Source: Candidatus Endomicrobium procryptotermitis (lineage in GTDB: Bacteria > Elusimicrobiota > Endomicrobiia > Endomicrobiales > Endomicrobiaceae). Taken from it: 64,000 nucleotides of DNA. The notes below the pieces were generated by a model. It saw only the letters and a list, made by a program, of their open reading frames with translations. It did no database searches and was not told the DNA's origin. Below are positions 43,401-60,666 of this stretch, in pieces. The stretch lies in contig JAITIP010000035.1 of NCBI GenBank assembly GCA_031279415.1, positions 1 to 64,000 on the forward strand, read 5' to 3'. A program made the translations under genes and the position numbers. The first letter of the stretch is position 1; each line of letters starts with the position of its first letter.

Positions 43401-43827
43401 TTTGATTTTTATGGCAACTGCAGCTACAGTTGACTGCTCCATTGTGGCTTTGCCCATTACCTTGTTTCCATCTTTTACATATTGCTTTCCAACATTTATC
43501 CTTTTTAAAGGCTCTTATTAAAATTGCATAACTAAACGCATAATTACAAATAATCCTTTGCCTTTTTTCTATTTTTCAGTTTTCAACACACCATTTAAAT
43601 GCTTTTTATCTCGCTTCCCAATTTTTACATGCCTATGCCAAATATATTATAAGCTCAGACATATGGCTATAAGTGCATTTTTTAATTTTACTCAAATCTC
43701 AATATTTTAGATTGACAAAAATTTTAATTTATGATACATATAGATTCTTAAAATTTTATTAGATTAGTATAAATCAATAAAAACAAATTCAAAATTCTAT
43801 AATATTTGTAATTTATGGAGTTATTTT
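43401..43827. other. Intergenic region before the haem locus
   Basis: AT-rich, no coding frame of note. Holds the haem-locus promoter region: a perfect TATAAT at 43798-43803 without a good -35, and a perfect TTGACA at 43712-43717 with only TACATA at 17 bp. I found no convincing Fur box. A short motif around 43543-43565 resembles 34677-34699. Confidence 0.4.
43798..43803 (+). promoter_or_regulatory. -10 element candidate for the haem locus
   Basis: TATAAT 25 bp before the hutW start, followed by a leader with GGAG. No recognisable -35, which is compatible with activator-dependent or iron-regulated expression, but this is weak evidence. Confidence 0.35.
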
Positions 43828-45144
43828 ATGGTTTCTGCTTCAAACGTATATTTAGTTGATGTATCGAAAGATGTTTTGCGATATGCATACAAAGGCAGAT
43901 TGATTGGAATGGCTTTGGCGCAAAGATCCGCCGTTGCTAAAGAAGAAATTTTTACAAAATATAAAGAACTTCTTCAAAATCCTTCAAGTGGAGCAGTAAC
44001 ATATATACATATTCCTTATTGTCAATATAGATGTTCTTTTTGCGGATTTGCAGGTTCAAAAGTTACAAAAGAAGAAGGCAGCAAATATGTAAATGCGCTT
44101 ATTAAAGAAATCGAACTTGTTTCGCAATACGCTTATGTTAAAGAAACTCCAATGCAGGCGGTATATCTTGGAGGCGGGACGCCTTCGGCAATAGAGCCGC
44201 AATATTTGTCCCTCCTAATCGAAAGTTTTCATAAATATCTAAATTTAGCAAATGACTGTGAAATAACTATTGAAGGACGTATACATGATTTTGAAGGTAC
44301 CCGCGGAAAAGATATTATACAAGCTGGCTTTAACCGTTTATCCATAGGTGTACAGAGTTTTAACACTAAAATAAGAAAAAGTTTGGGACGTGTTTCCGAA
44401 AGTAAAAAAGTACTGGAAATTCTTGCAAACCTTGCTTCATATAACAGAGCTGCAATAATTATAGACCTTATATACGGATTGCCCGCACAAAGCGTGGAAA
44501 TGTTTCTGGAAGATTTAAAAATTGCAGAACTTGCCGGAGTTGACGGGCTTGACACGTACCAGTTAAATGTTTTTGAAAATAGTCCGCTTAAAAAATCCAT
44601 TTTGGCTGGTTCAATGCCAGATGCTGCAAAAATCAGTGATCAGGGTGAATTTTATAAATCGGCTTATGAATATCTGACGAAAAATCATTGGCATCAGCTT
44701 AGCTTAAATCATTACGGCAAAACTTCCAGAGAAAGAAATATTTACAATCCATGGGTAAAAAGAAAAGCAGGGTGTCTCGGCATAGGTGCAGGCGCAGGAG
44801 GTTCTATAAATGGATGGAGCTATTACAGAATGCCAGCAGCGCAAAGATATATTGAAAATATAAATATTGGAATTTTTTCTCCGGACAGTCTCAGCACGCC
44901 AAACTCACATTTAGCACTTTCAAATAAAATTACCGAGCAGATGGAGAAAGGATATTTGAATACGGAAGAAATATTTGCGATAAACGCGGATTTTAAAGCA
45001 AAGCTTGCGCCATATTTAGAAAATTGGCTGCAAGCAAAACTTGTGGAATTTGACGGAAAATATATGAATCTTACTACGGCCGGAAAATTTTGGGGCGTTA
45101 ATCTTACCCGTGCTGTAACAGATATTCTTACTGGGGAAAAATAA
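43828..45144 (+). CDS. hutW: HutW/ChuW-family radical SAM methyltransferase (anaerobic haem degradation)
   Basis: 438 residues, HemN-like. The iron-sulphur motif is C65-x3-C69-x2-C72 (PYCQYRCSFCGF), followed by LGGGTPSAIEPQYL, TIEGRIHDF, FNRLSIGVQSFN and IDLIYGLP, the HemN-type radical SAM core. The family ChuW/HutW opens the haem ring without oxygen by radical methylation and releases iron. Assignment as HutW rather than HemN rests on context: flavodoxin, ExbBD-TonB, haem carrier HutX and a TonB-dependent receptor follow. Start has GGAG at good spacing. It is the first gene of the locus, and the flavodoxin starts right after the stop. Confidence 0.88.
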   Translation: MVSASNVYLVDVSKDVLRYAYKGRLIGMALAQRSAVAKEEIFTKYKELLQNPSSGAVTYIHIPYCQYRCSFCGFAGSKVTKEEGSKYVNALIKEIELVSQYAYVKETPMQAVYLGGGTPSAIEPQYLSLLIESFHKYLNLANDCEITIEGRIHDFEGTRGKDIIQAGFNRLSIGVQSFNTKIRKSLGRVSESKKVLEILANLASYNRAAIIIDLIYGLPAQSVEMFLEDLKIAELAGVDGLDTYQLNVFENSPLKKSILAGSMPDAAKISDQGEFYKSAYEYLTKNHWHQLSLNHYGKTSRERNIYNPWVKRKAGCLGIGAGAGGSINGWSYYRMPAAQRYIENINIGIFSPDSLSTPNSHLALSNKITEQMEKGYLNTEEIFAINADFKAKLAPYLENWLQAKLVEFDGKYMNLTTAGKFWGVNLTRAVTDILTGEK

Positions 45145-45145
45145 A

Positions 45146-45652
45146 ATGCACATTTTAATCGTTTATTCGTCTCTTACGGGCAATACGAAAATGATTGCCG
45201 AATCAATTTACGGAAAAGTTTCATCAAAAAATGAACACAAGTCCGACATCTTTCCAGTGGAAACTGCTCCATCGGCGGACAATTATGACCTTATTTTTTC
45301 AGGCTTTTGGGCAGACAAAGGCGGCGCTGACATTAAAACAAAACAATATCTGGAAAAAATTCATAATAAAAAGGTCGCATTATTTTTTACTTTGGGCGCA
45401 TATCCCGACAGCGAACATGCAGAAAATATTTTTGTAAGAGCAAAAAATATTCTTGCGGCAAACAACTCGGTTTTGGGACATTTTAAATGCATGGGAAAAA
45501 TCGACCCGAAAATACTCGAACTTTCTACAAAAGCCCATGGCGTTATAACACCTGAAAGAGCGGCAAGAATAGAAGAAGCAAAAAAACATCCGAACGCAGA
45601 CGATTGCGTAAATGCGGGATTTTTCGCCGAAAATATTTTAAAGAAGGTATAG
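45146..45652 (+). CDS. Flavodoxin family protein
   Basis: 168 residues. The FMN phosphate loop is SSLTGNTKMIAESI near the N-terminus, then DLIFSGFWADKGGAD and ALFFTLGAYPDSEHAENIF, typical of short-chain flavodoxins. It starts one base after hutW, so it very probably donates electrons to the radical SAM enzyme. Flavodoxin-type proteins encoded in haem loci (HmuF in Fusobacterium) take part in anaerobic haem breakdown; that comparison is from memory of the literature. Confidence 0.9.
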   Translation: MHILIVYSSLTGNTKMIAESIYGKVSSKNEHKSDIFPVETAPSADNYDLIFSGFWADKGGADIKTKQYLEKIHNKKVALFFTLGAYPDSEHAENIFVRAKNILAANNSVLGHFKCMGKIDPKILELSTKAHGVITPERAARIEEAKKHPNADDCVNAGFFAENILKKV

Positions 45653-45655
45653 TTT

Positions 45656-46321
45656 ATGATAGAAAATATATACGCTAAAATAGGAGCGGCGGGAATTGCT
45701 CTTGTTATCATCGGAGTAATATGTGTCTACCTTGCAGCAAAAAATATAATTTATTTGTGCATAGTAGGCCGCGATTTACACAGAATAATTCATGAAATAA
45801 ATGCAAAACCGCAGGATAGAGATGCCATTATTGAAGCAAATCTGGCAAATCCATTAATTTGCATTCTTAACGATATAATTAAAACCCACGCAGACCATTC
45901 CGATGATATCAAATCTGAAGCGGCTTTTTTGTTCAATCATTATTTCAGCCGTCCGATAAGAGACATAACGCTGATTAAAATCGTGGCGGCAATTTCGCCT
46001 CTGCTTGGACTTCTCGGAACGCTTTTGGGTCTTTTGGGTGTTTTCGGCAGGCTTTCAACTTCTGCCTCTATGGCGACAAGCACCGTTCTTGCCGCTGGGA
46101 TATGGGAAGCGATTTACACTACGGTCATGGGGCTAAGTCTTGCCATTCCCGCATTAATTGTTTATCACGTGCTTTCCATTTATATGCGTTCGTTCAATCT
46201 AGAAATAATTGAGTACGGACATCGCTTTTTGGGAAATTCGCATTACTGTTTGAGCAGATACCGTTATAAAAAACGGGATTTATCCTGTAAAAAAATTGCA
46301 GAAGCGAAAAATGAAATTTAA
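45656..46321 (+). CDS. exbB: ExbB/TolQ/MotA-family proton channel protein
   Basis: 221 residues, three membrane segments: about 11-32, 105-135 and 143-170, with a cytoplasmic loop between the first and second. The region ISPLLGLLGTLLGLLGVFGRLS and EAIYTTVMGLSLAIPALI is the ExbB signature. With ExbD it uses the proton gradient to energise TonB. It starts 3 bp after the flavodoxin stop and overlaps exbD. Confidence 0.94.
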   Translation: MIENIYAKIGAAGIALVIIGVICVYLAAKNIIYLCIVGRDLHRIIHEINAKPQDRDAIIEANLANPLICILNDIIKTHADHSDDIKSEAAFLFNHYFSRPIRDITLIKIVAAISPLLGLLGTLLGLLGVFGRLSTSASMATSTVLAAGIWEAIYTTVMGLSLAIPALIVYHVLSIYMRSFNLEIIEYGHRFLGNSHYCLSRYRYKKRDLSCKKIAEAKNEI

Positions 46322-46715
46322 TTTTGATTTTGACGATATTGGCGACGGAACAATAGACCTTACATCTTTAATAGACGTAATGTTTTTGCTGCTGATTTTT
46401 TTCATACTTGCCGCAACATTTACGTCACCAAGCATTGACGTAATGCTGGCTAAAGCAAATAGTGCAGAAACGGTTTCAAACCAGGTCGAGCGCGTAACTT
46501 TTAGCATAGATGCCTACGGTGGCATATATCACGATAAACAGCTGATAGATAAAGAAGAAATACCCATAATACTTTCTGGAAAACTGTCCGATACTTCCAT
46601 AGTGTTTAATGTTGACAAAAATGCTCCGTTCAACGCTTTTATCGGATTAATGGACCAAGTTAAATTACTGGGATACAGCAAATTCTTAATAAATGCCGAG
46701 CTTGAGGAAAAATAA
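46311..46715 (+). CDS. exbD: ExbD/TolR-family protein
   Basis: 134 residues from ATG 46311, inside the end of exbB; the frame extends to a TTG at 46296. One N-terminal helix, IDLTSLIDVMFLLLIFFILAAT, with the conserved membrane Asp (LIDV), followed by a periplasmic domain. Partner of ExbB in driving TonB. Confidence 0.93.
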   Translation: MKFNFDFDDIGDGTIDLTSLIDVMFLLLIFFILAATFTSPSIDVMLAKANSAETVSNQVERVTFSIDAYGGIYHDKQLIDKEEIPIILSGKLSDTSIVFNVDKNAPFNAFIGLMDQVKLLGYSKFLINAELEEK

Positions 46716-46716
46716 A

Positions 46717-47331
46717 ATGCATTTATCACAATATGAAACCATTTCAAATACCGGCGGAGTTTTTACAGTAATCGCATTACTTCTATTTTCAATGGTTGTT
46801 TTGCAGGGAGAAAAACCCATAGTATTAAGCGGTACGGGCACCACTGTTTCTATGTCGATAGAATATGCGCAGGAATTAACTTTGAACAGCGAAACCACTA
46901 AAGAACAGGAAGACGTTAAAGAAGAAGTTATTTCGCAAAAAGCGTACAAAGATCTAACGGAAAACAGTGCAGTTGACAAGCAAACTCCACAAAAAAACGT
47001 ACAAGAAAATCCAAATGACGCTGCACAAGAAGGTTTTGATTTATCTAAAAATGACGAATTTCTAAATTATTTTTTGCATCTGATACAATCATCTCTATAT
47101 TATCCTAAAAATGCCAGAAAAGCCGGAATTTCTGGGATCGTTGAAATAAAAGTTGTCTTTTCCGCTTCCGGAGAAATAAAAAGCGCGTCAATATCCGGAA
47201 AAAATCATCATAAGATATTGGGCGAAGCCTCATTAAAAACTGTCGAACGCGTCAAAAGAGATTGGCAGCCCATCTTAAAACCACGAAGGGAACAATCCGT
47301 AATCATACCAGTGAGCTTTGAACTAAAATAA
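46717..47331 (+). CDS. tonB: TonB
   Basis: Start at 46717 (MHLSQY) after GAGGAAA and one base past the exbD stop; the frame is open to 46693. 204 residues: one N-terminal helix (GGVFTVIALLLFSMVVL), a Glu/Lys-rich periplasmic linker, and a C-terminal TonB domain YPKNARKAGISGIVEIKVVFSASG...VKRDWQPILKPRREQSVIIPVSFEL. It transmits energy to the receptor encoded 2.7 kb downstream. Confidence 0.92.
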   Translation: MHLSQYETISNTGGVFTVIALLLFSMVVLQGEKPIVLSGTGTTVSMSIEYAQELTLNSETTKEQEDVKEEVISQKAYKDLTENSAVDKQTPQKNVQENPNDAAQEGFDLSKNDEFLNYFLHLIQSSLYYPKNARKAGISGIVEIKVVFSASGEIKSASISGKNHHKILGEASLKTVERVKRDWQPILKPRREQSVIIPVSFELK

Positions 47332-47349
47332 AAACAGGAGACGTAAATT

Positions 47350-48156
47350 ATGAAGCACAAGCGCAATACATGGATAGAACCTTTTGAAGGTCGCGAGTTA
47401 GACAGGGCTAAATTTATGGAAGATATCTCAAAAAAGCAGGTTGTTCTTTTGGGAGAACGCCATGACATTGCTGAGATTCACCGCTGGCAGCTTCACACGG
47501 CAATTTATCTACACGCTTTTCGGCCGAAAATACTTATGGGGTTTGAAATGTTTCCAGTAAGACTTCAAAGCGTTCTTGACAACTGGGTTGCAGGAGAACT
47601 CGAAACGGACGAATTTCTTAGACTTTGTGAATGGGAAAAAGTGTGGGGTTTTCCTCCCGAAATATATCTCCCGCTTTTTCATTTCTGCCGACAGAACTGC
47701 GTACCTATGATTGCTCTTAACTGTTACAGAGAACTTGTAACCAGAGTCGGAAAAGAAGGTTGGACAGCAATTGCGGAAAACGAGCGCGACGGGCTTACGC
47801 CTTCGGCGCCACCTCTTGAAGAGTACAAAAAATATTTATCAAAAATTACTGGCAGAGAAGTGGAAGAACGTTTTATAAGAGCACAGCAGACATGGGACAG
47901 GGCATTTGCCTGCAATATAAAAAAAGCTTTAGATAAGTTTGGAGACGATTATCTTATGATAGGGATTATTGGGAAAGGGCATCTTGAATACGGGTATGGC
48001 ACACCGTACCAGTTAAAGTCGCTTTCAGTAAACGACATTGCGATACTTCTTCCATCGGAAAAAGAAGAGTTCGAATTAAAAGAAATCGAAAATATTGCCG
48101 ATGGAATTTACAGAATAGACAAAGTCGAAAAACCTGCAGAGAGAAATAAAAAATGA
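47350..48156 (+). CDS. ChaN-like haem-binding domain protein, apparently cytoplasmic
   Basis: 268 residues. ChaN-fold marks: QVVLLGERHDIAEIHRWQLH, MGFEMFPVRLQSVLDNW, ALNCYRELVTRV and the late IGIIGKGHLEYGYG. ChaN of Campylobacter is an outer-membrane lipoprotein that binds two haems; this one has no signal peptide or lipobox, so it would act in the cytoplasm, perhaps as a haem trap beside HutW. It is 18 bp after tonB and coupled to the ABC gene by an ATGA overlap. Confidence 0.85.
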   Translation: MKHKRNTWIEPFEGRELDRAKFMEDISKKQVVLLGERHDIAEIHRWQLHTAIYLHAFRPKILMGFEMFPVRLQSVLDNWVAGELETDEFLRLCEWEKVWGFPPEIYLPLFHFCRQNCVPMIALNCYRELVTRVGKEGWTAIAENERDGLTPSAPPLEEYKKYLSKITGREVEERFIRAQQTWDRAFACNIKKALDKFGDDYLMIGIIGKGHLEYGYGTPYQLKSLSVNDIAILLPSEKEEFELKEIENIADGIYRIDKVEKPAERNKK

Positions 48157-49835
48157 AAGTTGTACGAAGTATTTTCAGGCTTATCAAAATTTGTTTATCT
48201 ACTACAGAAGGTAAAATCGGAATAATATTTTACGCGGCAGTTTTCGCTTTAAATATCGTAGGAATCAAAGTGTCGCTTGAACTTATAAACTGGAACAAAC
48301 ATTTTTATAACGCTTTGGAAAAATATGATACACAGGCGGCGTTTCATCAGGTAAAACTGTTTGCGTTGCTTGTGGCGATAAGTTCGCTTATTTATCTTGT
48401 TTCTCAATATCTTCAAAAACTTCTGCAGATCAGATGGCGGAAAGTTCTCACTGAAAAAGCGCTTAACATGTGGCTTAAAGATAAAAACTATTGGTATTTA
48501 AGCTCGTCCGACAAATCTGAACTGGACAATCCCGACCAGCGTATAGCCGAAGACTGCAAAACGTTTATAGAACATCTTACCGGTACTACACAGGAATTGT
48601 TAAACAGGTGCATAGGGCTTGTAACATATACGGTAGTTTTATGGAATATCGCTTCTTATGCTCTTTCTTTTACTCTGTTCGGTATGCATATAACGATTCC
48701 GCATTATATGGTGTGGGCTGCTCCAATTTATGTCGCAATATCGTCAATAGTAACGCATCTTTTAGGTGTGCCGCTTATAAAAATCAATGTGGAACAAAAA
48801 CGGCGCGAAGCCGATTTTCGTTTTTCGCTTACGCGTTTTAGAGAATCTAAAGAAGCAGTGGCGCTGCAATCCGGAGAAAAAGTCGAAAGAGAAATAATGG
48901 ACGAACGGTTTTTGAAAATAATCAAAAACTGGAGAAAGCTGATTAAAAGAGATTTTATTTTAGGCTGTTTTACCAGACCTTATATGGCGACAATTTTACG
49001 TATTCCGGTTTTTCTTGCACTTCCTGCATATCTGTTTGGAAAAGTGACTTTAGGTTCAATGATGCAGATGAGTTCCGCATTTCAAAACGTCGCAACAAGC
49101 CTTTCGTGGTTTATATTTTCTTATCGCGATTTGGCATCGCTTGCAGCTTCAAGCGTACGTTTTGATTCTTTTCTCAACGCCGCCGAAAGTTTTAAATACG
49201 ATTACAAACAGCTTTCAAAACGCAGAAACGCTCTCGGAGTTAAAAGTTTAGCTTTATACTCGCCAGAAAACAAATTGCTTTTTTCCATAGATGATGCCAA
49301 TATTTCCAAAGGAGATACGGTATTAGTAAAAGGTTGTTCTGGAAAAGGAAAATCCACGTTGTTTAAAACTTTTGCTGGTCTTCATCATAATTATACTGGA
49401 ACAGTGACTGTTCCGGAGAACAAATCAATGTTTCTTCCACAAAAAGCGTACTTTCCGCTTGGAGGTCTAGCGCATGCGGTAAGTTATCCCAACAAACTTT
49501 CTGAAGATAAAATTCCCGAAATAAAAGAAATTTTGCAAAAAGTTAATTTTCCATACAAAGATGTGGAAAAAAGGCTTATGCAATACGATATGTCACAGCT
49601 TTCCGGAGGAGAACAGCAAAGGCTTGTAGTTGCAAGAATTCTTTTTAACAAGCCCGAATGGATATTTATGGATGAAAGCACAAACGCGCTAGATTATGAA
49701 TCGGAAAAATTCTTAATCGAATTGATGCAGAACGAACTGCCTGATTCCACGTATGTAATAGTCTCGCATTCGGACGCCGTCAACGAATACGCAAAAAATT
49801 ATTACCAACTAAATCTTGACGCGGTGCAGTGCTAA
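48153..49835 (+). CDS. SbmA/BacA-type ABC transporter (fused permease-ATPase)
   Basis: 560 residues: about six membrane helices (1-345, SbmA/BacA-like, KVSLELINWNKHFYNALEK, DKSELDNPDQRIAED, KINVEQKRREADFRFSL), then an ATPase domain with Walker A KGCSGKGKST, signature LSGGEQQR and Walker B EWIFMDEST. Members (YddA, Rv1819c, ABCD) import peptides, vitamin B12 or other hydrophilic compounds. No HutBCD-like importer is present in this locus, so it is the candidate for moving haem or a tetrapyrrole product across the inner membrane. Direction and cargo are inference. Confidence 0.85.
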   Translation: MKVVRSIFRLIKICLSTTEGKIGIIFYAAVFALNIVGIKVSLELINWNKHFYNALEKYDTQAAFHQVKLFALLVAISSLIYLVSQYLQKLLQIRWRKVLTEKALNMWLKDKNYWYLSSSDKSELDNPDQRIAEDCKTFIEHLTGTTQELLNRCIGLVTYTVVLWNIASYALSFTLFGMHITIPHYMVWAAPIYVAISSIVTHLLGVPLIKINVEQKRREADFRFSLTRFRESKEAVALQSGEKVEREIMDERFLKIIKNWRKLIKRDFILGCFTRPYMATILRIPVFLALPAYLFGKVTLGSMMQMSSAFQNVATSLSWFIFSYRDLASLAASSVRFDSFLNAAESFKYDYKQLSKRRNALGVKSLALYSPENKLLFSIDDANISKGDTVLVKGCSGKGKSTLFKTFAGLHHNYTGTVTVPENKSMFLPQKAYFPLGGLAHAVSYPNKLSEDKIPEIKEILQKVNFPYKDVEKRLMQYDMSQLSGGEQQRLVVARILFNKPEWIFMDESTNALDYESEKFLIELMQNELPDSTYVIVSHSDAVNEYAKNYYQLNLDAVQC

Positions 49836-50033
49836 AGAGAAGATGGATAATGGCAAGGGAAGTCTAATGATGACGGATTCCGAAATAAATTCCGATAAAT
49901 AAAGGTAAGTAAAAAATAAATTTGCGTAAAGAGAGGTGGCTTCATGATAAATATTTTTTTGGATAGATGAAAATGTGCAAAAGCACACAATGGACAGCTT
50001 TCAACTATATTAAATAATTAAAAGGAGAAGATT
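49836..50033 (+). promoter_or_regulatory. Leader region of the receptor gene with hairpin
   Basis: 198 bp between the ABC gene and the receptor. It contains TGTGC-aaaa-GCACA (49974-49987), a direct repeat ATTCCGAAATAA / ATTCCGATAAAT near 49890-49915, and an eight-codon frame with GAGAGG before it (around 49944). The length and structure suggest the receptor has its own promoter or control. Confidence 0.4.
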
Positions 50034-52049
50034 ATGAAGAAAATTTTTGTTTTATTTATTGCAATTTTTATGAATGTAAATATTTATGCTCAAGACGGCA
50101 CGCCTAGTGAAAACGGTTTGCAATCACAGGATGAGGTTATTGCCGAACCAGCCAAAACCGACAATGACATAAATTTAAGTTTGACCGGCGTTAATTCGCA
50201 GTCCGCACAGACTGATGCGGAAGGCGACGAAATCAAAAAAACAAAAGCGCTTGTCGTTACTGCTACAAGAACCGAACGCAGTCTTAAAGAAATCCCCATG
50301 ACTGTAACCATAATAACGGCGGAAGACATCAAAAAAACTCCGGTTTCATCAGTAGCGGAACTTATCGCGAGAATTCCTGGCATAACTCTTGAAGACAACG
50401 GAGCGGCAGGAGTGTTAAAAGTAAAAATCAGAGGCGAAGCCAGCAAACGCACTTTGGTAATCATAGACGGTATCAGACAAAACGAACATGCACCCACTAC
50501 CGGAGCGCTGCCCATAATGATTTCTCCATCGGATATTGAAAGGATAGAAGTAATAAAAGGACCTTCTTCCGTGCTTTACGGCTCAGACGCCATCGGAGGA
50601 GTCATAAATATCATAACAAAAAAAGGCGCTGACAAGCCTTTAAGCTTTACACAACGCGCAATTTTTGATTCGTCGTCAAAACGCTATGACTTTTTCTTAG
50701 GCTTTTCTGGAAGTTATCAGGGCTTTTTCTATAACGGCGGTTTTGATTCTGTAGTATCCGACCTTCGAGATACGCCTGAGGGGAAACTTGTAGGCACGGA
50801 CTATAAAAGAGAAAACTATACAGGAAAATTAGGATACGCATGGGACAAAGGCGAAATTTCATTTGGCGTGCAGCGCCATGACAATGACATAAAATCACGC
50901 AGCGGCATGGGAAATCCTCCTTCTGTAGTTCAGATGGATTTCAAAAGACAGTCCTACGATGTTAATTTCGTGCTAAAGAACATTACCGATAACTTTGCAA
51001 AATTGACTTTAAGCGGCGCTCAGCAGGATATAAGAAGATATACGTCAAGCTTTCATAGAAAAACTGAAGGCATAACGATTACTCCTCAGACAGATTGGGT
51101 GTTTGGAAATCATTATGTAATCGTCGGAGGACAATATAACGATGACGATTTCGAAAACACGCAGCTTTCGACCAAAGTTAAAACAGACGCAGGACTCTGG
51201 GACGCGTCTTTATACTTGCAGGACGAATGGAATATAATCGAACCTTTGGTCGTTACTTTAGGCTTAAGACAGTCTTGGTATCATTCCAGCTCCGGCTCAA
51301 AAAGCAAAAATCTTGACAGACTCATCGGAAGTATAGGTGCGGTTTACGCTTTAAATGAAGAGATAAGCCTGCGTTCACAGTTTTCACAAGGTTTCAAAAC
51401 TCCTTCCATATATGAGACGATGATGGGTTCGACTGCGCTTATTATAAATCCAGATTTAGAGCCAGAAGAATCAAATAATTTTGACATAGGAACGATTATA
51501 ACTCTTGGAAAATTAAATTTGGACGCTTCAGTTTTTTATACAAAAGCTAAAAATTATATAGCGTGGAAACAAACGGGACCTATGACAATGCAGCCGCAAA
51601 ACATAAACGAAGCCGAAACTTACGGCTTGGAATTGTACGCGGGATACGATATATGTTCGTTCACTCCTTATGTAAGCGCCGGATATTTAAATCGCACATA
51701 TTGGAACGCTCCGGGAAGCGCGATATCTAAAACTAACAAGACCGGCTCGTCTCCTTTTCACGGTTCACTCGGAGTGCGCTGGCAATATACCATTGCTGGT
51801 TTTGTCTTATTTTCTGATATAAAAACGGTCTGGGCTGCGGAAGCGGAAACCGAATCTACCACGGGCGATATTACAAAAGATGATGGCTGGAATATTTACA
51901 ATTTACAGTTAGGATTGCAGAAAAATGCTTATTTTGTCACTGTGGACATAAATAATATCGCGGATAAAAAATATATAAAAGCCGATTCGTCGCCAGACTT
52001 TTACGAACCCGGACTTCACGTCGTGTTAAGCTGCGGATTTAATTTTTAA
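50034..52049 (+). CDS. TonB-dependent outer-membrane receptor, probable haem receptor
   Basis: 671 residues: signal peptide (1-19), a TonB-box-like TKALVVTATRTER near 72-84, the plug domain (EIPMTVTIITAEDIKKTPVSSV, GVLKVKIRGEASKRTLVIIDG, IERIEVIKGPSSVLYGSDAIGGVINIITKKG) and a 22-strand barrel ending VVLSCGFNF. The segment FSQGFKTPSIYETMMGSTALIINPDLEPEES corresponds to the FRAP/NPNL region of haem receptors. Context (HutW, HutX, TonB) makes haem the best substrate guess; a siderophore or cobalamin is possible. The start has AAAAGGAG at correct spacing. Confidence 0.9.
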   Translation: MKKIFVLFIAIFMNVNIYAQDGTPSENGLQSQDEVIAEPAKTDNDINLSLTGVNSQSAQTDAEGDEIKKTKALVVTATRTERSLKEIPMTVTIITAEDIKKTPVSSVAELIARIPGITLEDNGAAGVLKVKIRGEASKRTLVIIDGIRQNEHAPTTGALPIMISPSDIERIEVIKGPSSVLYGSDAIGGVINIITKKGADKPLSFTQRAIFDSSSKRYDFFLGFSGSYQGFFYNGGFDSVVSDLRDTPEGKLVGTDYKRENYTGKLGYAWDKGEISFGVQRHDNDIKSRSGMGNPPSVVQMDFKRQSYDVNFVLKNITDNFAKLTLSGAQQDIRRYTSSFHRKTEGITITPQTDWVFGNHYVIVGGQYNDDDFENTQLSTKVKTDAGLWDASLYLQDEWNIIEPLVVTLGLRQSWYHSSSGSKSKNLDRLIGSIGAVYALNEEISLRSQFSQGFKTPSIYETMMGSTALIINPDLEPEESNNFDIGTIITLGKLNLDASVFYTKAKNYIAWKQTGPMTMQPQNINEAETYGLELYAGYDICSFTPYVSAGYLNRTYWNAPGSAISKTNKTGSSPFHGSLGVRWQYTIAGFVLFSDIKTVWAAEAETESTTGDITKDDGWNIYNLQLGLQKNAYFVTVDINNIADKKYIKADSSPDFYEPGLHVVLSCGFNF

Positions 52050-52075
52050 ACCAGAACAATAAGTTTAAAAACGTA

Positions 52076-52113
52076 CGGTTCGTTTGCGGCATATTTTTCT
52101 CGCAAACGAACCG
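52076..52113 (+). terminator. Strong hairpin between receptor gene and hutX
   Basis: A perfect 13-bp stem (CGGTTCGTTTGCG / CGCAAACGAACCG) with a 12-nt loop, 27 bp after the receptor stop and 31 bp before the hutX start. Only ATTTTAT follows, so it may be a leaky terminator or an mRNA-stabilising structure that lowers HutX relative to the receptor. Confidence 0.7.
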
Positions 52114-52144
52114 ACATTTTATGGATTTTAAACGGAGAAACAAA

Positions 52145-52621
52145 ATGCATGAATATTTAACAGATTTTTGCGAAAATAAAAAAACAATAAGAGCCATAAG
52201 TAAAGAGCATAACGTATCTGAACTTGACGTAATAAAAGTTTTAGAGACTGGCAAATATGTGCGACTGCTGGGAAAAGAGTTTGTAAAAAAGCTGATTGAA
52301 GAACTTCCTTCACTCGGAGAATTATTGATTCTCATAGAGCACGGCGGTTCAATTTTTGAAATCACGTCAATTTTTCTGCCCGTATGTGAATCTCACGGAT
52401 ACTATAATCTAGGACGTGCGGCTCTTTCAGGACATTTAAATACCGATAAAATAACAAATATTGGCGTAATATCGGAAAATTTGTTCGGCAGGCGTTCGTG
52501 CAGCTGGGTATTTCTCGGAGAAAACGGAGAACCTGTTTTTAAAGTATATCTAAAAAGAGACGAAAATAAAGAAATTTTAAAAGACCAATTATCAGTTTTC
52601 GAAAAATGGTTTAATTTTTAA
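52145..52621 (+). CDS. hutX: HutX/HuvX-family cytosolic haem carrier
   Basis: Start at 52145 (MHEYL) with CGGAG upstream; the frame is open to 52121. 158 residues, the family length. Features: YVRLLGKEFVKKLIEELPSLGELLILIEHGGSIFEI, then SHGYYNLGRAALSGHLN and FLGENGEPVFKVYLKRDENKEI. HutX and HuvX bind haem in the cytosol and hand it to the degrading enzyme. It is the last gene of the haem locus and supports reading the whole cluster as haem use. Confidence 0.9.
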   Translation: MHEYLTDFCENKKTIRAISKEHNVSELDVIKVLETGKYVRLLGKEFVKKLIEELPSLGELLILIEHGGSIFEITSIFLPVCESHGYYNLGRAALSGHLNTDKITNIGVISENLFGRRSCSWVFLGENGEPVFKVYLKRDENKEILKDQLSVFEKWFNF

Positions 52622-52778: not shown

Positions 52779-52865
52779 GGAAGGATGGCCGAGCGGTTTA
52801 AGGCGCTAGTCTTGAAAACTAGTATAGGGGAAACTCTATCGGGGGTTCAAATCCCTCTCCTTCCG
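52779..52865 (+). tRNA. tRNA-Ser (anticodon UGA)
   Basis: 87 nt with acceptor GGAAGGA / TCCTTCC, D-arm, anticodon stem CTAGT / ACTAG around CTTGAAA (anticodon TGA), a long class-II variable arm (TATAGGG...), T-arm GGGGGTTCAAATCCCTC and discriminator G. No encoded CCA. Prophage genes begin 63 bp past its 3' end, which makes it the likely integration site. Confidence 0.97.
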
Positions 52866-52928: not shown

Positions 52929-53297
52929 TTAGACACTGTTTTTTTTACAATATATTCTATGGTAAGCGACAAGTACATTTATAATTTCGTGCTGAAACGC
53001 TATGTTGCGGCCTAGCGGCATAAGCAAAACATGTAACGCTTCATGAAATGCCAGAGCTTCCAGCTCTTCAGTCTTTTCCTTTTTATTTTTGATATTTTTC
53101 AGCGGAAAAAAGCTAACCGTGCAGGTTCTCTGCTCAATATCACATAAAACTAAAGCGCCGCCATTTTCGGCACACTTTTTATCATCGGCTTTAGCGCAAA
53201 TTCCTTTGTCCCTCAGTTCCCACCGTGCCAGATTAAAAAAGTTAAAAAAATAAATAAACTTATTCCAAAAGATTTTGTATTGCTGCTTTGGCGTCAT
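52929..53297 (-). CDS. Phage-region protein with HExxH motif (122 aa)
   Basis: 122 residues. Contains HEALH (in FHEALHVLLMPLG) followed 13 residues later by FQHEIINVLV, which could give a third ligand as in small zinc metallopeptidases. A Cys-rich middle (GICAKADDKKCAENG) is also present. It is the last gene of the prophage before tRNA-Ser, 59 bp after the endolysin gene. Lysis or host-takeover functions are guesses; a metallopeptidase fold is plausible. Confidence 0.6.
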   Translation of the reverse strand: MTPKQQYKIFWNKFIYFFNFFNLARWELRDKGICAKADDKKCAENGGALVLCDIEQRTCTVSFFPLKNIKNKKEKTEELEALAFHEALHVLLMPLGRNIAFQHEIINVLVAYHRIYCKKNSV

Positions 53298-53356
53298 TCG
53301 GATACCTGCCGTTAAAGTGATAGGCGATCACTCATTTTGCTTGATTTTTCAATCTT

Positions 53357-53902
53357 TTAAACCCGCCGTTTTAAAGCAATGTACAAATCCTCACACTTCT
53401 TTGCATAAATCGGGTCAGTGGCATACTTCAGCTTACCGTCAACAAGCCTTTTAAAATAATTTTGATAGTCCGTTCGAAAGCTAAAAGCCTCTGGATAATT
53501 ATTTTTGATAAAATCAACATACCACTTCACCGCTTCTTCACTTGTCTCCCAGTCTCTAAAATTCTGCTTAATCGATATTTTCCACTTATCCTTATAAGTC
53601 AAAGACCTGTCAACTTTTTCAACAAGCCGACCATATTTCTTTTGGGTCCGCTCTACTGCTGCATTAAGGCTTTCTCCTTCAATTACTTGTTCATATTCTG
53701 TCGTTAATACCGTTTTTGATAATCCTGTCCAATTGCTTTTCGTAGGTGTTTTTATTCCCCAAAAGTTATTTAAACCGATAACTCTATCAAACCCGCCGCT
53801 CTCATGGTATGCATGCGTCAAAAGAATAAGCCAGTCAAAGCCTGTTGTTTCGGATATCGACTTGGCCGCCTCAAGATATTCCTTCATTCTTTTTTCGTTC
53901 AT
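53357..53902 (-). CDS. Phage endolysin, glucosaminidase family
   Basis: 181 residues with the glucosaminidase (FlgJ/LytG-like) pattern: catalytic Glu in HAYHESGGFD, GLNNFWGIKTPTKSNWTGLS, FRDWETSEEAVKWYVDFI and LVDGKLKYATDPIYAKK. It hydrolyses the N-acetylglucosamine bond of peptidoglycan. No signal peptide, so release needs a holin; holin-like genes lie 1.3 kb upstream in the same direction. GGGGGG precedes the start. Confidence 0.88.
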   Translation of the reverse strand: MNEKRMKEYLEAAKSISETTGFDWLILLTHAYHESGGFDRVIGLNNFWGIKTPTKSNWTGLSKTVLTTEYEQVIEGESLNAAVERTQKKYGRLVEKVDRSLTYKDKWKISIKQNFRDWETSEEAVKWYVDFIKNNYPEAFSFRTDYQNYFKRLVDGKLKYATDPIYAKKCEDLYIALKRRV

Positions 53903-53949
53903 TTGCCCCCCTGTTTATATCATTAATCTTCATTTTTACTACTTTTTGA

Positions 53950-53990
53950 TTGAATTTTGCTTTAAACTTGGTTATAATACTTTTGCAAAA
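53950..53990 (+). promoter_or_regulatory. Promoter and palindromic operator candidate of the toxin-antitoxin pair
   Basis: TTGAAT (53950-53955), 17-base spacer, perfect TATAAT (53973-53978), then the perfect palindrome TTTTGCAAAA (53981-53990) over the predicted transcription start. Such a site suits autorepression by the antitoxin. Confidence 0.65.
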
Positions 53991-54023
53991 CAAATCAAGT
54001 ATCCCAAGTAAAAGGAAACTAAA

Positions 54024-54188
54024 ATGACCGAACTAGAAGCCTTAAAATCAAAAGCCAAAGAGCTTGGTGTAAAAGTGCCAAAAAAATATATAAAGGCTGC
54101 CAAGGCTGTTGATAGAGCTAGGGAAATATTTAAGGAAGCCGGATTCTCTCCATCAAAAGAATACCTAAAAGCAAAATATGGAAAATAA
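54024..54188 (+). CDS. Small antitoxin candidate (54 aa)
   Basis: ATG 54024 with AAAGGAAA upstream. 54 residues, Lys/Ala-rich and helical (ELEALKSKAKELGVKV, AAKAVDRAREIFKEAGF, KEYLKAKYGK). It overlaps the PIN gene by 11 bp, the standard coupled layout for type II toxin-antitoxin pairs. No known antitoxin fold recognised; the assignment rests on position, size and the promoter/palindrome upstream. Confidence 0.65.
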   Translation: MTELEALKSKAKELGVKVPKKYIKAAKAVDRAREIFKEAGFSPSKEYLKAKYGK

Positions 54189-54699
54189 ATCTGTTGCTTC
54201 TAAACACTATTACCTTTTAGACGCTTCCGCTTTTTGTCGCTTTATTGAGTATATAAGCGCAAATGCTCGTATATCTCATAATATAATTCAAAGAGCTGTA
54301 TTTGAAAGTTATTTTTATTATATGCCTCAATTTTGTATTGCTGAAGTTTTTAATACTTTTGCAAAATGGCATTATGCAGAGAAACGTATAAATGAAAAAA
54401 AATATAAAGAACTTTGTAGCATATTTAAATTTCTTATACATGATAGACTTGTTATATATCCTTACGATTTACATCGTTACCATAATTTAAACTGCGATAA
54501 AGTCTTTCCTGTAGAACACACTACGCCGCACAGTATGCCTAAAAAGGGGAAGCTCTCAACTTTTGATATATTAATAATTGCAATGGCTTTAGAACTTCAA
54601 CTTATACATGGCAACGATAATGTTTCTATTCTTAGCTGTGATAACAGGCTTACAGAAATTTCAAAATTATTAAAAATTAAAACTGAAATTTATTGTTAA
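54178..54699 (+). CDS. PIN-domain toxin candidate
   Basis: 173 residues. PIN-type acidic residues: D15 in YLLDASAFCRF, E in CIAEVFNTFAKW, D in STFDILIIAMALEL, and D in ILSCDNRLTEI. This is the Asp-Glu-Asp-Asp order of VapC-like RNases that cut tRNA or mRNA. It is on the opposite strand from the phage genes and lies between the endolysin and spanin genes, so it is a separate cassette, perhaps for phage defence or prophage stability. AT-rich, more so than phage genes next to it. Confidence 0.75.
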   Translation: MENKSVASKHYYLLDASAFCRFIEYISANARISHNIIQRAVFESYFYYMPQFCIAEVFNTFAKWHYAEKRINEKKYKELCSIFKFLIHDRLVIYPYDLHRYHNLNCDKVFPVEHTTPHSMPKKGKLSTFDILIIAMALELQLIHGNDNVSILSCDNRLTEISKLLKIKTEIYC

Positions 54700-54760
54700 T
54701 TGCCGATTAATTGGTTACTGCCACCATTGCTTCTATCAATATCTATCAATACCGATAGAT

Positions 54761-55138
54761 TTACAAATTTCTTTCAATCGCCATTACCGCTATTACTCCC
54801 AGAGCTACGCATAACGCAGTCTTGTATTTTGTGGTTGATTTCTTCCAGCTCGTCAATGTGGCGGAATGCGCTGTCTGCTCCTGCGTAAATAGCATCTGTA
54901 AGTTCTGAAATTCGCTGTGTGCTTTCTCTCGCTCTAATGTCTGCTGATTCAGCGATTCTTTGAGCGTCGAGTTCTCGCTGCACAATTCCAAGTTGCTGTT
55001 GTGTACGAACTTCAAGTCGTTGCGTATCTCGTTCAATTTGTCCGCCTGCATTTGAAAAAGTGTAGATAGCTCCTCCGCACATAGCGGCGCCGAAAATAAT
55101 GCCAATGAAAAAAATAAGCAGAAAAGTTTTGAAATCAT
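54761..55138 (-). CDS. Overlapping lysis ORF B: signal peptide, coiled coil, C-terminal helix
   Basis: 125 residues. N-terminal signal (MISKLFCLFFSLALFSAPLC), a coiled-coil-like middle (LNEIRNDLKFVHNSN, NQQTLEREKAHSEF), and a C-terminal hydrophobic helix (TALCVALGVIAVMA). Lipid signal plus terminal helix is the u-spanin layout, but APLC is not a canonical lipobox. The ATG overlaps the upstream holin stop (ATGA), a strong sign of real coupling. It is almost entirely contained in the other frame at 54774-55142, on the same strand. One of the two could be a shadow. Confidence 0.5.
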   Translation of the reverse strand: MISKLFCLFFSLALFSAPLCAEELSTLFQMQADKLNEIRNDLKFVHNSNLELCSENSTLKESLNQQTLEREKAHSEFQNLQMLFTQEQTAHSATLTSWKKSTTKYKTALCVALGVIAVMAIERNL

Positions 55139-55142
55139 TCAT
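54774..55142 (-). CDS. Overlapping lysis ORF A: i-spanin-like
   Basis: 122 residues from ATG 55142, preceded by AAGGGGAAAG; the frame is open to 55163. One N-terminal helix (FKTFLLIFFIGIIFGAAMCGG) and a long periplasmic coiled coil rich in Gln/Arg/Glu (IERDTQRLEVRTQQQL, RELDAQRIAESADIR), ending in a polar Ser/Gly tail with one Cys. This matches the Rz-type inner-membrane spanin. Codons follow local habit better than frame B. Start 4 nt upstream of ORF B and stop 13 nt before its end. Confidence 0.6.
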   Translation of the reverse strand: MNDFKTFLLIFFIGIIFGAAMCGGAIYTFSNAGGQIERDTQRLEVRTQQQLGIVQRELDAQRIAESADIRARESTQRISELTDAIYAGADSAFRHIDELEEINHKIQDCVMRSSGSNSGNGD

Positions 55143-55395
55143 TCTTTCCCCTTGCAACCGCAATTATCTCTTTTACCATCGTCCATTTTGTTATTAAATA
55201 CGGTATAATCGCTATAAAAGCAATTATTGCCAACGCTATAAATATTTGATAGTTAGCATGCTCATTGTCAAACCTTTCAACACTATAAAAAGCCAACCCT
55301 GACGCTATTAACAACATTATTGCCGTCCATACCCTTCCAAAACTTATTCGCTTGTCATTTGTGTCATCGCATTCAAACATCTCTAAGATTTTCAT
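55135..55395 (-). CDS. Holin-like two-helix membrane protein
   Basis: 86 residues with two hydrophobic helices (about 22-38 and 48-66) and a charged C-terminus (KEIIAVARGKNE). Position between a XhlA-like gene and the spanin frames, and overlap at both ends (ATGA with the neighbours), fit a holin that lets the endolysin out. Family not recognised for certain. Confidence 0.65.
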   Translation of the reverse strand: MKILEMFECDDTNDKRISFGRVWTAIMLLIASGLAFYSVERFDNEHANYQIFIALAIIAFIAIIPYLITKWTMVKEIIAVARGKNE

Positions 55396-55637
55396 ATTTT
55401 CACTCCTCTAAAAAGTCCTATAAAAAAATCAACTGCCGCCAAAATAACCGCTCCACCTACAATTGTGCCTATCCACATAAATGCGCTTACTCTTGATTCA
55501 AGCCTCTCTGTTCTTGTCTTTAGCCCCTCTTTGCCATTCCCATAAAGCGTATTATCATGGTCTTCTATTTTTTCTTTGATATACTTTACATCTCCCTTAA
55601 TCTCAAGCAAACATTCTTTCATTTCTTCATCGGTCAT
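55392..55637 (-). CDS. XhlA-like membrane-associated lysis protein
   Basis: 81 residues: a charged coiled coil (GDVKYIKEKIEDHDNTLYGNGKEGLKTRTERLESRV) followed by a C-terminal helix (FMWIGTIVGGAVILAAVDFFIGLF). The layout matches XhlA/haemolysin-type phage lysis proteins. GAGAGGAAA precedes the start. Overlaps the holin-like gene by 4 bp. Confidence 0.7.
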   Translation of the reverse strand: MTDEEMKECLLEIKGDVKYIKEKIEDHDNTLYGNGKEGLKTRTERLESRVSAFMWIGTIVGGAVILAAVDFFIGLFRGVKI

Positions 55638-55944
55638 AGCTATTTCCTCTCTTATTCAGCGTTATCTCTGCCGCTGAGCTGCCGTAGTCGTTGTAGCTGT
55701 TGTAGTAGCCGTAGTTGCCGCAGCCGTCGTAGTTGTAGTAGTCGTTCTAATCTGCCGGCTGCTAAGGCAATTCCCCTTTTCTAACTTGCCTTCTTGCTAG
55801 GCTTCCGCTTGTAGCCGCCGCTAATTCCCCTTTTAGAAAAAGGGGTGGCTGAGAGCAAAGCTCTCTGACGGGGTATTTCGTCTTTGCCGTTGCCGTTATC
55901 TTTGTCGTTGCCTCTGCCTCTGTCAAACTTCTAAACCTCCAATA
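55638..55944. repeat. Repeat- and hairpin-rich spacer between fibre and lysis genes
   Basis: Two parts. 55660-55750 is an imperfect period-3 repeat (plus strand TGTAGT/CGTAGT/CGCCGT-like units). 55764-55865 has three hairpins: AAGGCAA / TTGCCTT (55764-55792), CCCCTTTT-aga-AAAAGGGG (55827-55845) and GAGAGC-aaa-GCTCTC (55851-55865); AATTCCCCTTTT occurs twice. A TTG frame on the minus strand (about 55929 to 55765) has GGAGG upstream but low-complexity content; I do not call it a gene. May be a fibre-lysis terminator or a dispersed element. Confidence 0.55.
55827..55845. terminator. Terminator-like hairpin after the tail-fibre genes
   Basis: Perfect 8-bp stem CCCCTTTT / AAAAGGGG with a 3-nt loop, 100 bp past the last fibre gene stop. 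The stem includes the T-run; no long T tail follows. Confidence 0.4.
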
Positions 55945-56862
55945 TTACACGTCATAAATAACTCTTACTCTTGCACTGTATCCTGTTAAATCCTCATCAG
56001 TATGGACTGTGATAATTTTTGTTGACGGATTAAAAGACAAATCTGCAGCAGCAATCGGTTTGACAATAGTTCCATTGTCAATAACGCCTTCAATATTACG
56101 CACAACTGCATCAGCCCGCAGCCACAACTCATCACTAGTATAATCTCCAGCTTCTCCCAACGTTATTTCCGCTGCCACTTCATAGCCGATTTTTGAGCGC
56201 AGATAAGGTAAATTAACAAGCTCTTCAGGCACAGTCGGCGATAAATAGAAATTAGTACCGTCAAATGCAACACTGAGATAGCCAGGGTTCGTCAATATAA
56301 TTTGTGTTATTATCCCAAAATCTATATTGTCCAGCTTCATAATCTGTGTATTTTTCTTTTGATTAATCACAGAGGTAGTAAATATTACATAGCTGGAACT
56401 ATTCCAACTAACTCCAAAGATACAATTAAGCAATTCAATCGAATTAATAATTTCATTAGTAGGCGACATATGTTCTAAATCCAGAGATATTGTAAAAATA
56501 GTACTATTCGAAGTATTAGCGCTGTTATATCCTCTCAATTTTAACTGGAGATAATGACCATCGGCATTTGGAGTTCCCACGATAATTTTGTTATATAATA
56601 AATCAGGCTCTATTCTTGTACCCTGAAATACACTCCCGATTACATATTGACTTACATCAATAATTGCGCCTGTCAAATTTTCACCTACAGCTAAATCTTT
56701 AATATTTGTAATTTCCTCAGACGGCGCTCCAATAGCTTCATAATAGGTCGAGGCAAAAGAATTATATGTCTCCTGCATTGTCAAATAATTCTCTTCAAGA
56801 TATTTCTTCGAAAGCCCACCACTGCCATTTTCTTTTATCCCTTTTAACGCTTTTATTGCCAT
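55945..56862 (-). CDS. Tail fibre/appendage protein (305 aa)
   Basis: 305 residues, mostly beta-rich and Ser/Asn/Thr-rich, with N-terminal MAIKALKGIKENGSGGLSKKYLEENYLTMQETYN, a possible attachment segment, and a C-terminal domain that reads as a small beta-fold (GTIVKPIAAADLSFNPSTKIITVHTDEDLTG). Position directly after two other fibre-region genes suggests receptor binding. No specific family. Confidence 0.6.
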   Translation of the reverse strand: MAIKALKGIKENGSGGLSKKYLEENYLTMQETYNSFASTYYEAIGAPSEEITNIKDLAVGENLTGAIIDVSQYVIGSVFQGTRIEPDLLYNKIIVGTPNADGHYLQLKLRGYNSANTSNSTIFTISLDLEHMSPTNEIINSIELLNCIFGVSWNSSSYVIFTTSVINQKKNTQIMKLDNIDFGIITQIILTNPGYLSVAFDGTNFYLSPTVPEELVNLPYLRSKIGYEVAAEITLGEAGDYTSDELWLRADAVVRNIEGVIDNGTIVKPIAAADLSFNPSTKIITVHTDEDLTGYSARVRVIYDV

Positions 56863-56870
56863 ATAATCCC

Positions 56871-57164
56871 CTATGATAATGTTATTACTACGTCTGGATT
56901 TACGTCTTCAGAACCTTCGGCTTTGATTAGATAATTTATTACAGGCAGACGAGCAATAAAACTCCCACTTTCAGACGTAAAAACCATATCGCTGCCGTCT
57001 TCAAATTTGCATACTTCCCAATACCCACCGCCATCAGACGCTCTGATTGTTATATTGCCAGACGTCAAGTTTGTTATTGTCAATACTTTTTCCTGCTCGC
57101 CCTCTACCTGATTTAACACCCCAAAATCCCTCACCAACAATCCTTGTTTGATTTTTAAAATCAT
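56871..57164 (-). CDS. Small fibre-region protein (97 aa)
   Basis: 97 residues, beta-rich, with VEGEQEKVLTITNLTSGNITIRASDGGG and CKFEDGSDMVFTSES, which looks like a small immunoglobulin- or jelly-roll-like domain. It lies 8 bp before the 305-residue gene on the same strand, in the fibre cluster, so it may be a fibre accessory or chaperone. Not recognised. Confidence 0.55.
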   Translation of the reverse strand: MILKIKQGLLVRDFGVLNQVEGEQEKVLTITNLTSGNITIRASDGGGYWEVCKFEDGSDMVFTSESGSFIARLPVINYLIKAEGSEDVNPDVVITLS

Positions 57165-57199
57165 TCTTTTGCTCCTTGAAATTTATTTTTTACACGCTC

Positions 57200-58015
57200 T
57201 TACTGTTGTTTTCGAAAATACAATGAATCATAACCTACAATATTGACTGCTTTTCGTTGTCCAGAGTTTAATATTACATCAACATACCCACCACCACACA
57301 TAAGTTGCAGTGAATCGTATATCGTTCCACTAGAACTGCCATCAGAACGCAAAGAATAAGTATATATAAAACCACCGGACATAAATATGTATGTACAATT
57401 TGTAGAATTAGAGTTGTTGTAAGATAACCTTAAATTTAAAAAATAATAAGCATGGTCTTCCGGAAGAGTGGGAAAAAGAGTTGAATCTTCAGTCGTACTT
57501 AATGTTACGTTTATGTTCGGAGAAAATGTGCCAAATGGGGTGCCACGGTTCATCCACTTATTACTGCTGTAGTAAAATTCTAATACTAGGTCTGTATCTG
57601 AACGAATAGAAAGAGTACGGCTTCCGTTAATAACTATACAAGAGCATTCTCTTTGGTTTCCAGATAACGTAAAAGGCATTCCCGTACCTCCGGAGTTCCA
57701 CGTCCATCTATACGCTCCGTCGGCAAGCGTTGTTGGGTTAGTGTTTGCAGGCATTGCTCTGTAAGTAAATTTGTTATTTAGTAAGTTATCAATTTCAGCC
57801 TTATTATATCCCGATACCCAAATGCCGTTATTCATTATCCATGAGCCAGCATCTGCCTTCTTGGGAGCATAAGCATTGTTAAATTTGTTTCCCAAAAACG
57901 CTCCAAGTTTTGCCAATGTCATTTTTTTTGTCGATATTCCATCCTCGACAGGAAAAACTTGTTCATCTGCCGCTGATGGCGCTTCCGGTAATCCTGATAT
58001 TGTTTCATCTGCCAT
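57200..58015 (-). CDS. Tail fibre protein (271 aa)
   Basis: 271 residues. The N-terminus (ETISGLPEAPSAADEQVFPVEDGISTKKMTLAKLGAFL) is the adapter-like segment found in many fibres, and the rest is beta-rich with repeated aromatic/Asn patterns (FTYRAMPANTNPTTLADGAYRW). It is 13 bp after the baseplate gene, where Mu-type phages place the first fibre gene. Confidence 0.7.
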   Translation of the reverse strand: MADETISGLPEAPSAADEQVFPVEDGISTKKMTLAKLGAFLGNKFNNAYAPKKADAGSWIMNNGIWVSGYNKAEIDNLLNNKFTYRAMPANTNPTTLADGAYRWTWNSGGTGMPFTLSGNQRECSCIVINGSRTLSIRSDTDLVLEFYYSSNKWMNRGTPFGTFSPNINVTLSTTEDSTLFPTLPEDHAYYFLNLRLSYNNSNSTNCTYIFMSGGFIYTYSLRSDGSSSGTIYDSLQLMCGGGYVDVILNSGQRKAVNIVGYDSLYFRKQQ

Positions 58016-58027
58016 AATACGCTCCTT

Positions 58028-59369: not shown

Positions 59370-59370
59370 G

Positions 59371-59679
59371 TCAACCCCCTATCATTTGCGTTTGCTCGTT
59401 TGTGTCTAAAAGCTTCATTTCCACTCTATTTCTAAAATCTTCAAATTGCTTTTTTACTTCAATAACACTAATGCCATACTCAGCTAATCTTTGCTGTGCG
59501 TAATTCTCGAAAACTTCCATAGCAATTTCAAAGCCGGCATTTAAAAAGTAATTAATATCGATGCCGAAATCCTGCTCATATAACAAATAGTCTGTTTGAA
59601 TGCGTAAGATGTTCTCGGCTTTATAAACAACCGTATCCGCGAATTGTACTCCATTTGATAATCCCGTAATATCTATCAT
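59371..59679 (-). CDS. gp25/gpW-like baseplate protein
   Basis: 102 residues. RIQTDYLLYEQDFGIDINYFLNAGFEIAMEVFENYAQQRLAEYGISVIEVKK fits the lysozyme-like gp25 pattern (start of the first helix, DFG, AI, and the V-V end). These proteins hold the baseplate hub to the tube in contractile tails. It overlaps the next upstream gene by 4 bp. Confidence 0.75.
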   Translation of the reverse strand: MIDITGLSNGVQFADTVVYKAENILRIQTDYLLYEQDFGIDINYFLNAGFEIAMEVFENYAQQRLAEYGISVIEVKKQFEDFRNRVEMKLLDTNEQTQMIGG

Positions 59680-60664: not shown

Positions 60665-60666
60665 TT

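Follow-up and report, generated by a model that had tools for sequence, protein, structure and literature searches.

How would haem cross the inner membrane of a bacterium that carries genes for opening the porphyrin ring without oxygen and in which no haem importer of the HutBCD/ChuTUV type is found? This question is raised by a nine-gene cassette at positions 43828-52621 of a 64,000-nucleotide stretch of DNA, hereafter the window, from Candidatus Endomicrobium procryptotermitis (GenBank assembly GCA_031279415.1, contig JAITIP010000035.1, positions 1 to 64,000 of the forward strand). A preliminary description of the window had proposed nine genes for haem capture and anaerobic haem degradation at this place, and a check of the open reading frames (ORFs) bore out all nine, their coordinates and their common orientation on the plus strand. 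Searches with Pfam and NCBIfam models identified, in cassette order, the families Radical_SAM/HutW, Flavodoxin_3, MotA_ExbB, ExbD, TonB_C, ChaN, ABC_membrane_2 fused to ABC_tran, Plug with a TonB barrel, and ChuX_HutX. The first seven genes are tightly packed, with gaps of 1, 3, −8, −23, 18 and −4 bp, followed by 198 bp before the receptor gene and 71 bp before hutX.

Eight of the nine families had been named correctly in the preliminary description, which left the ATP-binding cassette (ABC) transporter at 48153-49835 unnamed. Its reading as a haem capture and degradation locus is supported as well, although it missed the HmuF type of the flavodoxin and the lack of a standard haem ABC importer. 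The parts that were missed are those that set this locus apart from known ones: an anaerobic haem-degradation locus is of a known kind, while the combination of a HutW-type enzyme and a HmuF-type flavodoxin with a BacA/ABCD-type transporter and ChaN is new. As a whole, the cassette is likely to be a self-contained system for the anaerobic acquisition of iron from haem.

The radical SAM enzyme belongs to the HutW/ChuW family

The first gene (43828-45144, plus strand) encodes a radical S-adenosylmethionine (SAM) methyltransferase, a predicted anaerobilin synthase, which reaches 452.4 bits with the HutW model TIGR04107 and thus exceeds the curated cut-off of 400. The scores with the hemN (131 bits, cut-off 325) and HemW (153 bits, cut-off 205) models, and likewise with HemZ, remain far below the respective cut-offs. 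The CxxxCxxC radical SAM motif is located at residue 65 (YIHIPYCQYRCSFCGF). The window enzyme is about 35% identical to proteobacterial HutW. Maximum-likelihood analysis placed it and its two Endomicrobiaceae counterparts described below in one clade with the HutW proteins of Cereibacter, Paracoccus, Providencia, Rahnella and Vibrio (support 100/100), separate from HemN and HemW, including the HemW-like protein of the same genome. When HmuW of Fusobacterium was added, the HutW clade was recovered with 97/97 and HmuW was its sister, both together being supported by 96/93. The clustering with HemN that would have spoken against the earlier assignment was looked for in the trees and not seen. The protein is therefore a member of the HutW/ChuW family, HemN, HemW and HemZ being excluded by score and tree, and by analogy with this family it would catalyze ring opening.

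A flavodoxin of the HmuF type

The adjoining gene (45146-45652, plus strand) encodes a flavodoxin whose sole sequence match in the PDB is 8g64, the haem-bound FldH of Fusobacterium nucleatum. The same entry is the top Foldseek match (template modelling score 0.73) of its AlphaFold model, which was built from a two-sequence alignment and has a predicted local distance difference test score (pLDDT) of 72.5. In this model a helical cap, formed by helices 121-130 and 136-146, is placed between the strand 108-116 and the final helix. HmuF and FldH bind haem and flavin mononucleotide, pass haem to HmuW and reduce anaerobilin, and the haem ligand of FldH is His134 (PMC10404700). The window flavodoxin is 35.5% identical to Fusobacterium HmuF, and its His131, which is kept in all three copies of the cassette, aligns with His134 of HmuF; the assignment relies on this alignment, since the phmmer alignment to FldH does not match up His131. 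The linker motif AxxHPxxxD is likewise present in all three copies and reads AKKHPNADD in the window.

Two other identities were considered for this protein. BilS was rejected on its score (103 bits, NCBIfam cut-off 155), Fusobacterium HmuF itself reaching only 98 bits with the same model, and a plain electron-donor flavodoxin is less likely because FldH alone matches in the PDB by sequence and also ranks first by fold. No ChuY-like reductase is found among the nine cassette genes. Judged from the ligand histidine and the modelled fold, the flavodoxin is probably a haem carrier or chaperone of the HmuF type that also serves as anaerobilin reductase.

A BacA/ABCD-type transporter as candidate haem importer

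The transporter gene (48153-49835, plus strand) encodes a permease (PF06472, 156 bits) fused to an ATPase (PF00005, 65 bits), a BacA/ABCD-type protein that we propose as the inner-membrane haem importer. The HutBCD/ChuTUV type of importer is missing: the cassette holds no FecCD permease, and no other haem-type ABC importer was found in the genome. The only strong FecCD permease of this genome belongs to a B12 uptake operon (G000:C31) that also encodes a BtuF-like protein, an ATPase and a receptor and is bordered by two cobalamin riboswitches; as the genus lacks porphobilinogen deaminase, it must scavenge corrinoids. Directly upstream of the transporter gene lies that of a ChaN family protein (47350-48156, plus strand; PF04187, 174 bits). 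Neither a signal peptide nor a lipobox was seen in ChaN by eye, so that the protein is probably cytosolic; it has no sequence match in the PDB, and its probable haem binding is suggested by the family name.

The same pair of genes occurs in a second phylum, among soil alphaproteobacteria. The transporter and ChaN were each compared by tblastn with 72,556 plasmids. The five best relatives of the transporter (38.8-44.3% identity) and the relatives of ChaN (45-52% identity) were found side by side on the same five alphaproteobacterial plasmid records, from Devosia, Rhizobium sp. CC-CFT758, Paracoccus aminophilus and two Pannonibacter. All five modules have the order receptor, transporter, middle gene, ChaN. 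Four modules were scanned with family models: three of the receptors exceed the haem/haemoglobin cut-offs and the fourth has those families as its best ones, while three of the middle genes match HemS/ChuX families and the one from Rhizobium matches no Pfam family. HutW is not annotated next to any of the modules. In a tree of the transporters, eight haem-linked sequences, including those of the Endomicrobiaceae, group apart from seven others with 100/100.

The proposed role draws its main support from this linkage to haem-type genes in two phyla, seen in a small sample limited to plasmids, and the import of haem by the BacA/ABCD-type transporter is a reasonably probable reading. The wider proposal, for which we see about even chances, is that BacA/ABCD-type transporters with ChaN are a class of their own among the bacterial systems that import haem across the inner membrane, a class that works without a periplasmic binding protein, occurs in at least two phyla and is joined here to anaerobic haem degradation by a radical SAM enzyme.

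Four of the seven transporters outside the haem-linked group come from enterobacterial plasmids (L077, L078, L081 and L082) and also have the gene of a TonB-dependent receptor beside them; FecIR-type regulators accompany three of the four, and in one case an M16 peptidase gene lies in between. These are possibly other uptake systems that are free of a binding protein.

Receptor, energy transduction and HutX

The remaining genes, all on the plus strand, encode ExbB (45656-46321; PF01618), ExbD (46311-46715; PF02472), TonB (46693-47331; PF03544 and TIGR01352, both above cut-off), a TonB-dependent outer-membrane receptor (50034-52049) and HutX, a predicted cytosolic haem carrier (52121-52621), whose best PDB match is 5exv. 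For ExbD, comparison with the copy in the related genome G298 makes the ATG at 46311 a likelier start than the listed TTG at 46296. The receptor is about 30% identical to those encoded next to HutW in Cereibacter, Paracoccus and Providencia, and its plug residue His152 is common to the receptors of Cereibacter and Paracoccus methylovorus. An AlphaFold model of the receptor had a pLDDT of 25.6 and was not used.

Distribution and origin of the cassette

In a species-level genome collection, the nearest record to the window HutW is that of Endomicrobium sp. isolate Gx485_bin123 (81% identity over the full length). Endomicrobium belongs to the Elusimicrobiota, family Endomicrobiaceae; the earlier guess that the DNA is elusimicrobial was thus right, and a scan of the phylum agrees. 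From general knowledge of the family, the bacterium probably comes from a termite gut. The HutW cut-off was passed by three of 341 Elusimicrobiota genomes: that of the window, its congener G298, and G300 from a different genus of the family. HmuW-type enzymes score under this cut-off (Fusobacterium HmuW, 213 bits), and a very diverged relative could escape the scan; the sub-threshold hits of the phylum that were placed in the tree fall with HemW.

All three genomes carry the complete set of nine genes in identical order. Among the 77 genomes of the family, HutW, ABC_membrane_2 and ChaN each exceed their cut-offs in exactly these three. The copies in G298 and G300 are 81 and 65% identical to those of the window for HutW, 91 and 79% for the ABC transporter, and 87 and 76% for ChaN. 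Ratios of non-synonymous to synonymous substitution rates (dN/dS) range from about 0.04 to 0.18 across the seven cassette genes tested, with the minimum for the transporter compared with G298; the ratios are approximate because dS is close to saturation. Both the conserved order in two further genomes and the dN/dS values well below 1, a sign of purifying selection, show that the cassette is not a chance neighbourhood.

Upstream of the cassette, the window is collinear with G295 and G296, two congeners without HutW, up to the end of a lytic transglycosylase gene and not beyond. Insertion of the cassette as a single block beside this gene was considered, but no downstream homology was found that would have marked out an exact empty site. 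In G298, the lytic transglycosylase gene and the cassette are located on separate contigs, and the neighbours of the cassette are trp genes and an antiporter-like gene. The differing surroundings in two congeners fit a gain or movement of the cassette as one unit; no mobile element was identified.

The proposed pathway and its alternatives

Neither porphobilinogen deaminase nor cytochrome bd oxidase was found in the genomes of the genus, and the literature describes the family Endomicrobiaceae as fermenting and strictly anaerobic (PMC11257099). For these reasons, haem is probably used as an iron source. In the pathway that we propose, the receptor, powered by the TonB-ExbB-ExbD proteins of the cassette, would take haem across the outer membrane, and the BacA/ABCD-type transporter, standing in for HutBCD/ChuTUV, would carry it over the inner membrane with no need of a periplasmic binding protein. 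The arriving haem would be bound by HutX, the HmuF-like flavodoxin and probably also ChaN in the cytosol. HutW would then cleave the porphyrin ring by means of SAM-derived radicals and free Fe2+, and the flavodoxin would reduce the anaerobilin made by HutW.

A number of observations weigh against this pathway. The haem/haemoglobin receptor family TIGR01785, although the best-scoring one for the receptor, reaches 203 bits compared with a cut-off of 317, and among single PDB entries the colicin I receptor Cir matches it best. Moreover, no histidine is present between the FRAP-like and NPDL-like motifs of the receptor (GFKTPSIYETMMGSTALIINPDL), whereas ShuA has one between FRAP and NPNL; it is likewise absent from the HutW-adjacent receptors of Cereibacter, Paracoccus and Providencia. 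For these three reasons haem is put forward only as the probable ligand of the receptor. HutX scores 108.3 bits with TIGR04108, 2 bits under the NCBIfam cut-off of 110, though it passes the Pfam cut-off for ChuX_HutX (PF06228). No Fur box was found within the window at up to three mismatches, and FeoB is present in four of five genomes of the genus, so haem is not the sole iron route. In G298, the transporter gene (L003:11592-13280, 91% identical) is interrupted at codon 293 by an in-frame stop, which reflects either a pseudogene or an error of the metagenome-assembled genome. Finally, the best solved relative of the transporter is 6tqe (227 bits), which we take to be the mycobacterial Rv1819c/BacA, followed by ABCD family proteins including the lysosomal cobalamin transporter ABCD4. 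The substrates of these nearest relatives of solved structure are cobalamin and hydrophilic compounds, while haem is amphipathic, and mycobacterial BacA, which imports cobalamin, is able to run in both directions (PMC10960864).

The last point bears on the alternative that survives best, in which haem degradation proceeds as above while the ABC transporter works outwards, on anaerobilin or on surplus haem, and haem itself enters through the BtuCDF permease of the B12 type or in some other way. The transporter does belong to an exporter-type fold family, anaerobilin is cytotoxic (PMC10404700), and a BtuCDF-like system is present in the genome. On the alphaproteobacterial plasmids, however, the same transporter clade adjoins haem receptors and ChaN with no HutW annotated next to it, so that no anaerobilin is expected from these modules. 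The FecCD permease is also found in most genomes of the family, nearly all of them without HutW, and the more distant enterobacterial relatives of the transporter stand beside TonB receptors, as expected of an importer. We therefore regard export as unlikely.

Much less probable still is that the transporter is an importer of B12 (corrinoids) merely located in a haem locus. Its nearest solved relatives would agree with such a role. The riboswitch-flanked operon of the genome, however, already provides a B12 route, no cobalamin riboswitch was found within the window, and its relatives within the transporter clade have haem/haemoglobin receptors, HemS/ChuX-like proteins and ChaN as genomic neighbours. 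Equally improbable is that imported haem is kept intact as a cofactor while HutW serves another role, such as porphyrin salvage or detoxification: without porphobilinogen deaminase any haem protein of the genus would need imported haem, but the lack of cytochrome bd and the fermentative metabolism described for the family speak against it, and the presence of HutW and a HmuF-like reductase in one gene cluster points to degradation.

Should haem import by this transporter hold true, it would represent a second solution for the passage of haem across the inner membrane, and it would give a function to a subfamily of BacA-like transporters at present annotated as peptide transport and a conserved partner to ChaN, a protein of unclear role. 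Oxygen-independent use of haem iron would furthermore be extended to the Elusimicrobiota; among open-licence papers, we found none on haem use in Endomicrobium or in this phylum.

Neighbouring sequences in the window

A weak candidate promoter (TTGACA, 17 nt, TACATA; 43712-43740, plus strand) precedes the cassette, and the DNA upstream of each of the three cassettes contains TTGACA with an AT-rich hexamer after a spacer of 17 nt. The frequency of promoter-like sites around the cassette is not above that in shuffled sequences.

Downstream of hutX, a tRNA-Ser gene is present in two genomes (window 52779-52865 and L035 30-118), with the anticodons tga and gga and in opposite orientation relative to hutX. 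Past this gene, the ORFs at 52929-64000 lie mostly on the minus strand, and one of ten ORFs tested matches a phage family, an endolysin at 53357-53902. A prophage attachment at the tRNA-Ser was considered and not established, as no repeat of the tRNA-Ser 3' end is found on the remainder of the contig. Elsewhere in the window, an AcrB-type efflux protein of the resistance-nodulation-division type is encoded at 1826-5050 (ACR_tran, 815 bits), and at 13390-19271 a PD-(D/E)XK nuclease protein adjoins a UvrD-type helicase, possibly as an AddAB-like pair.

Comparison with known haem uptake systems

The Vibrio hut locus (tonB-exbB-exbD-hutBCD and hutWXZ) resembles the window in combining HutW, HutX and a dedicated TonB-ExbBD, and the HutW proteins of Vibrio and the window pair in the trees with moderate support (82/86, or 88/86 with HmuW added). 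Vibrio, however, has hutBCD and HutZ, whereas the window has neither and carries instead the HmuF-like flavodoxin, ChaN and the BacA/ABCD-type transporter. A FecCD-type permease, usually together with a binding protein and an ATPase, is found in the HutW loci of Cereibacter, Providencia, Vibrio and Paracoccus methylovorus, but not in the plasmid locus of Rahnella. Ring opening by a radical SAM enzyme and a cytosolic haem carrier are also features of the E. coli chu genes (chuW, chuX, chuY), which differ from the window in having the NADPH reductase ChuY and ChuTUV where the window has a HmuF-like flavodoxin and a BacA/ABCD-type transporter (PMC10404700 and general knowledge).

The nearest counterpart of the enzyme-flavodoxin pair is hmuTRUVWF of Fusobacterium, in which a radical SAM anaerobilin synthase adjoins the flavodoxin HmuF with its haem-ligand histidine. 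Fusobacterium, unlike the window, uses the FecCD-type HmuTUV, and HmuW shares only 27% identity with the window enzyme. The transporter has its closest solved sequence relative in mycobacterial BacA/Rv1819c, which is likewise a fused permease-ATPase and imports cobalamin, a corrinoid; the substrates given for it are cobalamin and hydrophilic compounds, haem being unmentioned (PMC10960864). The alphaproteobacterial plasmid modules share with the window the transporter clade and the same type of ChaN in adjacent position, but no HutW, flavodoxin or TonB-ExbBD is annotated next to them, and their receptors are 20-23% identical to that of the window.

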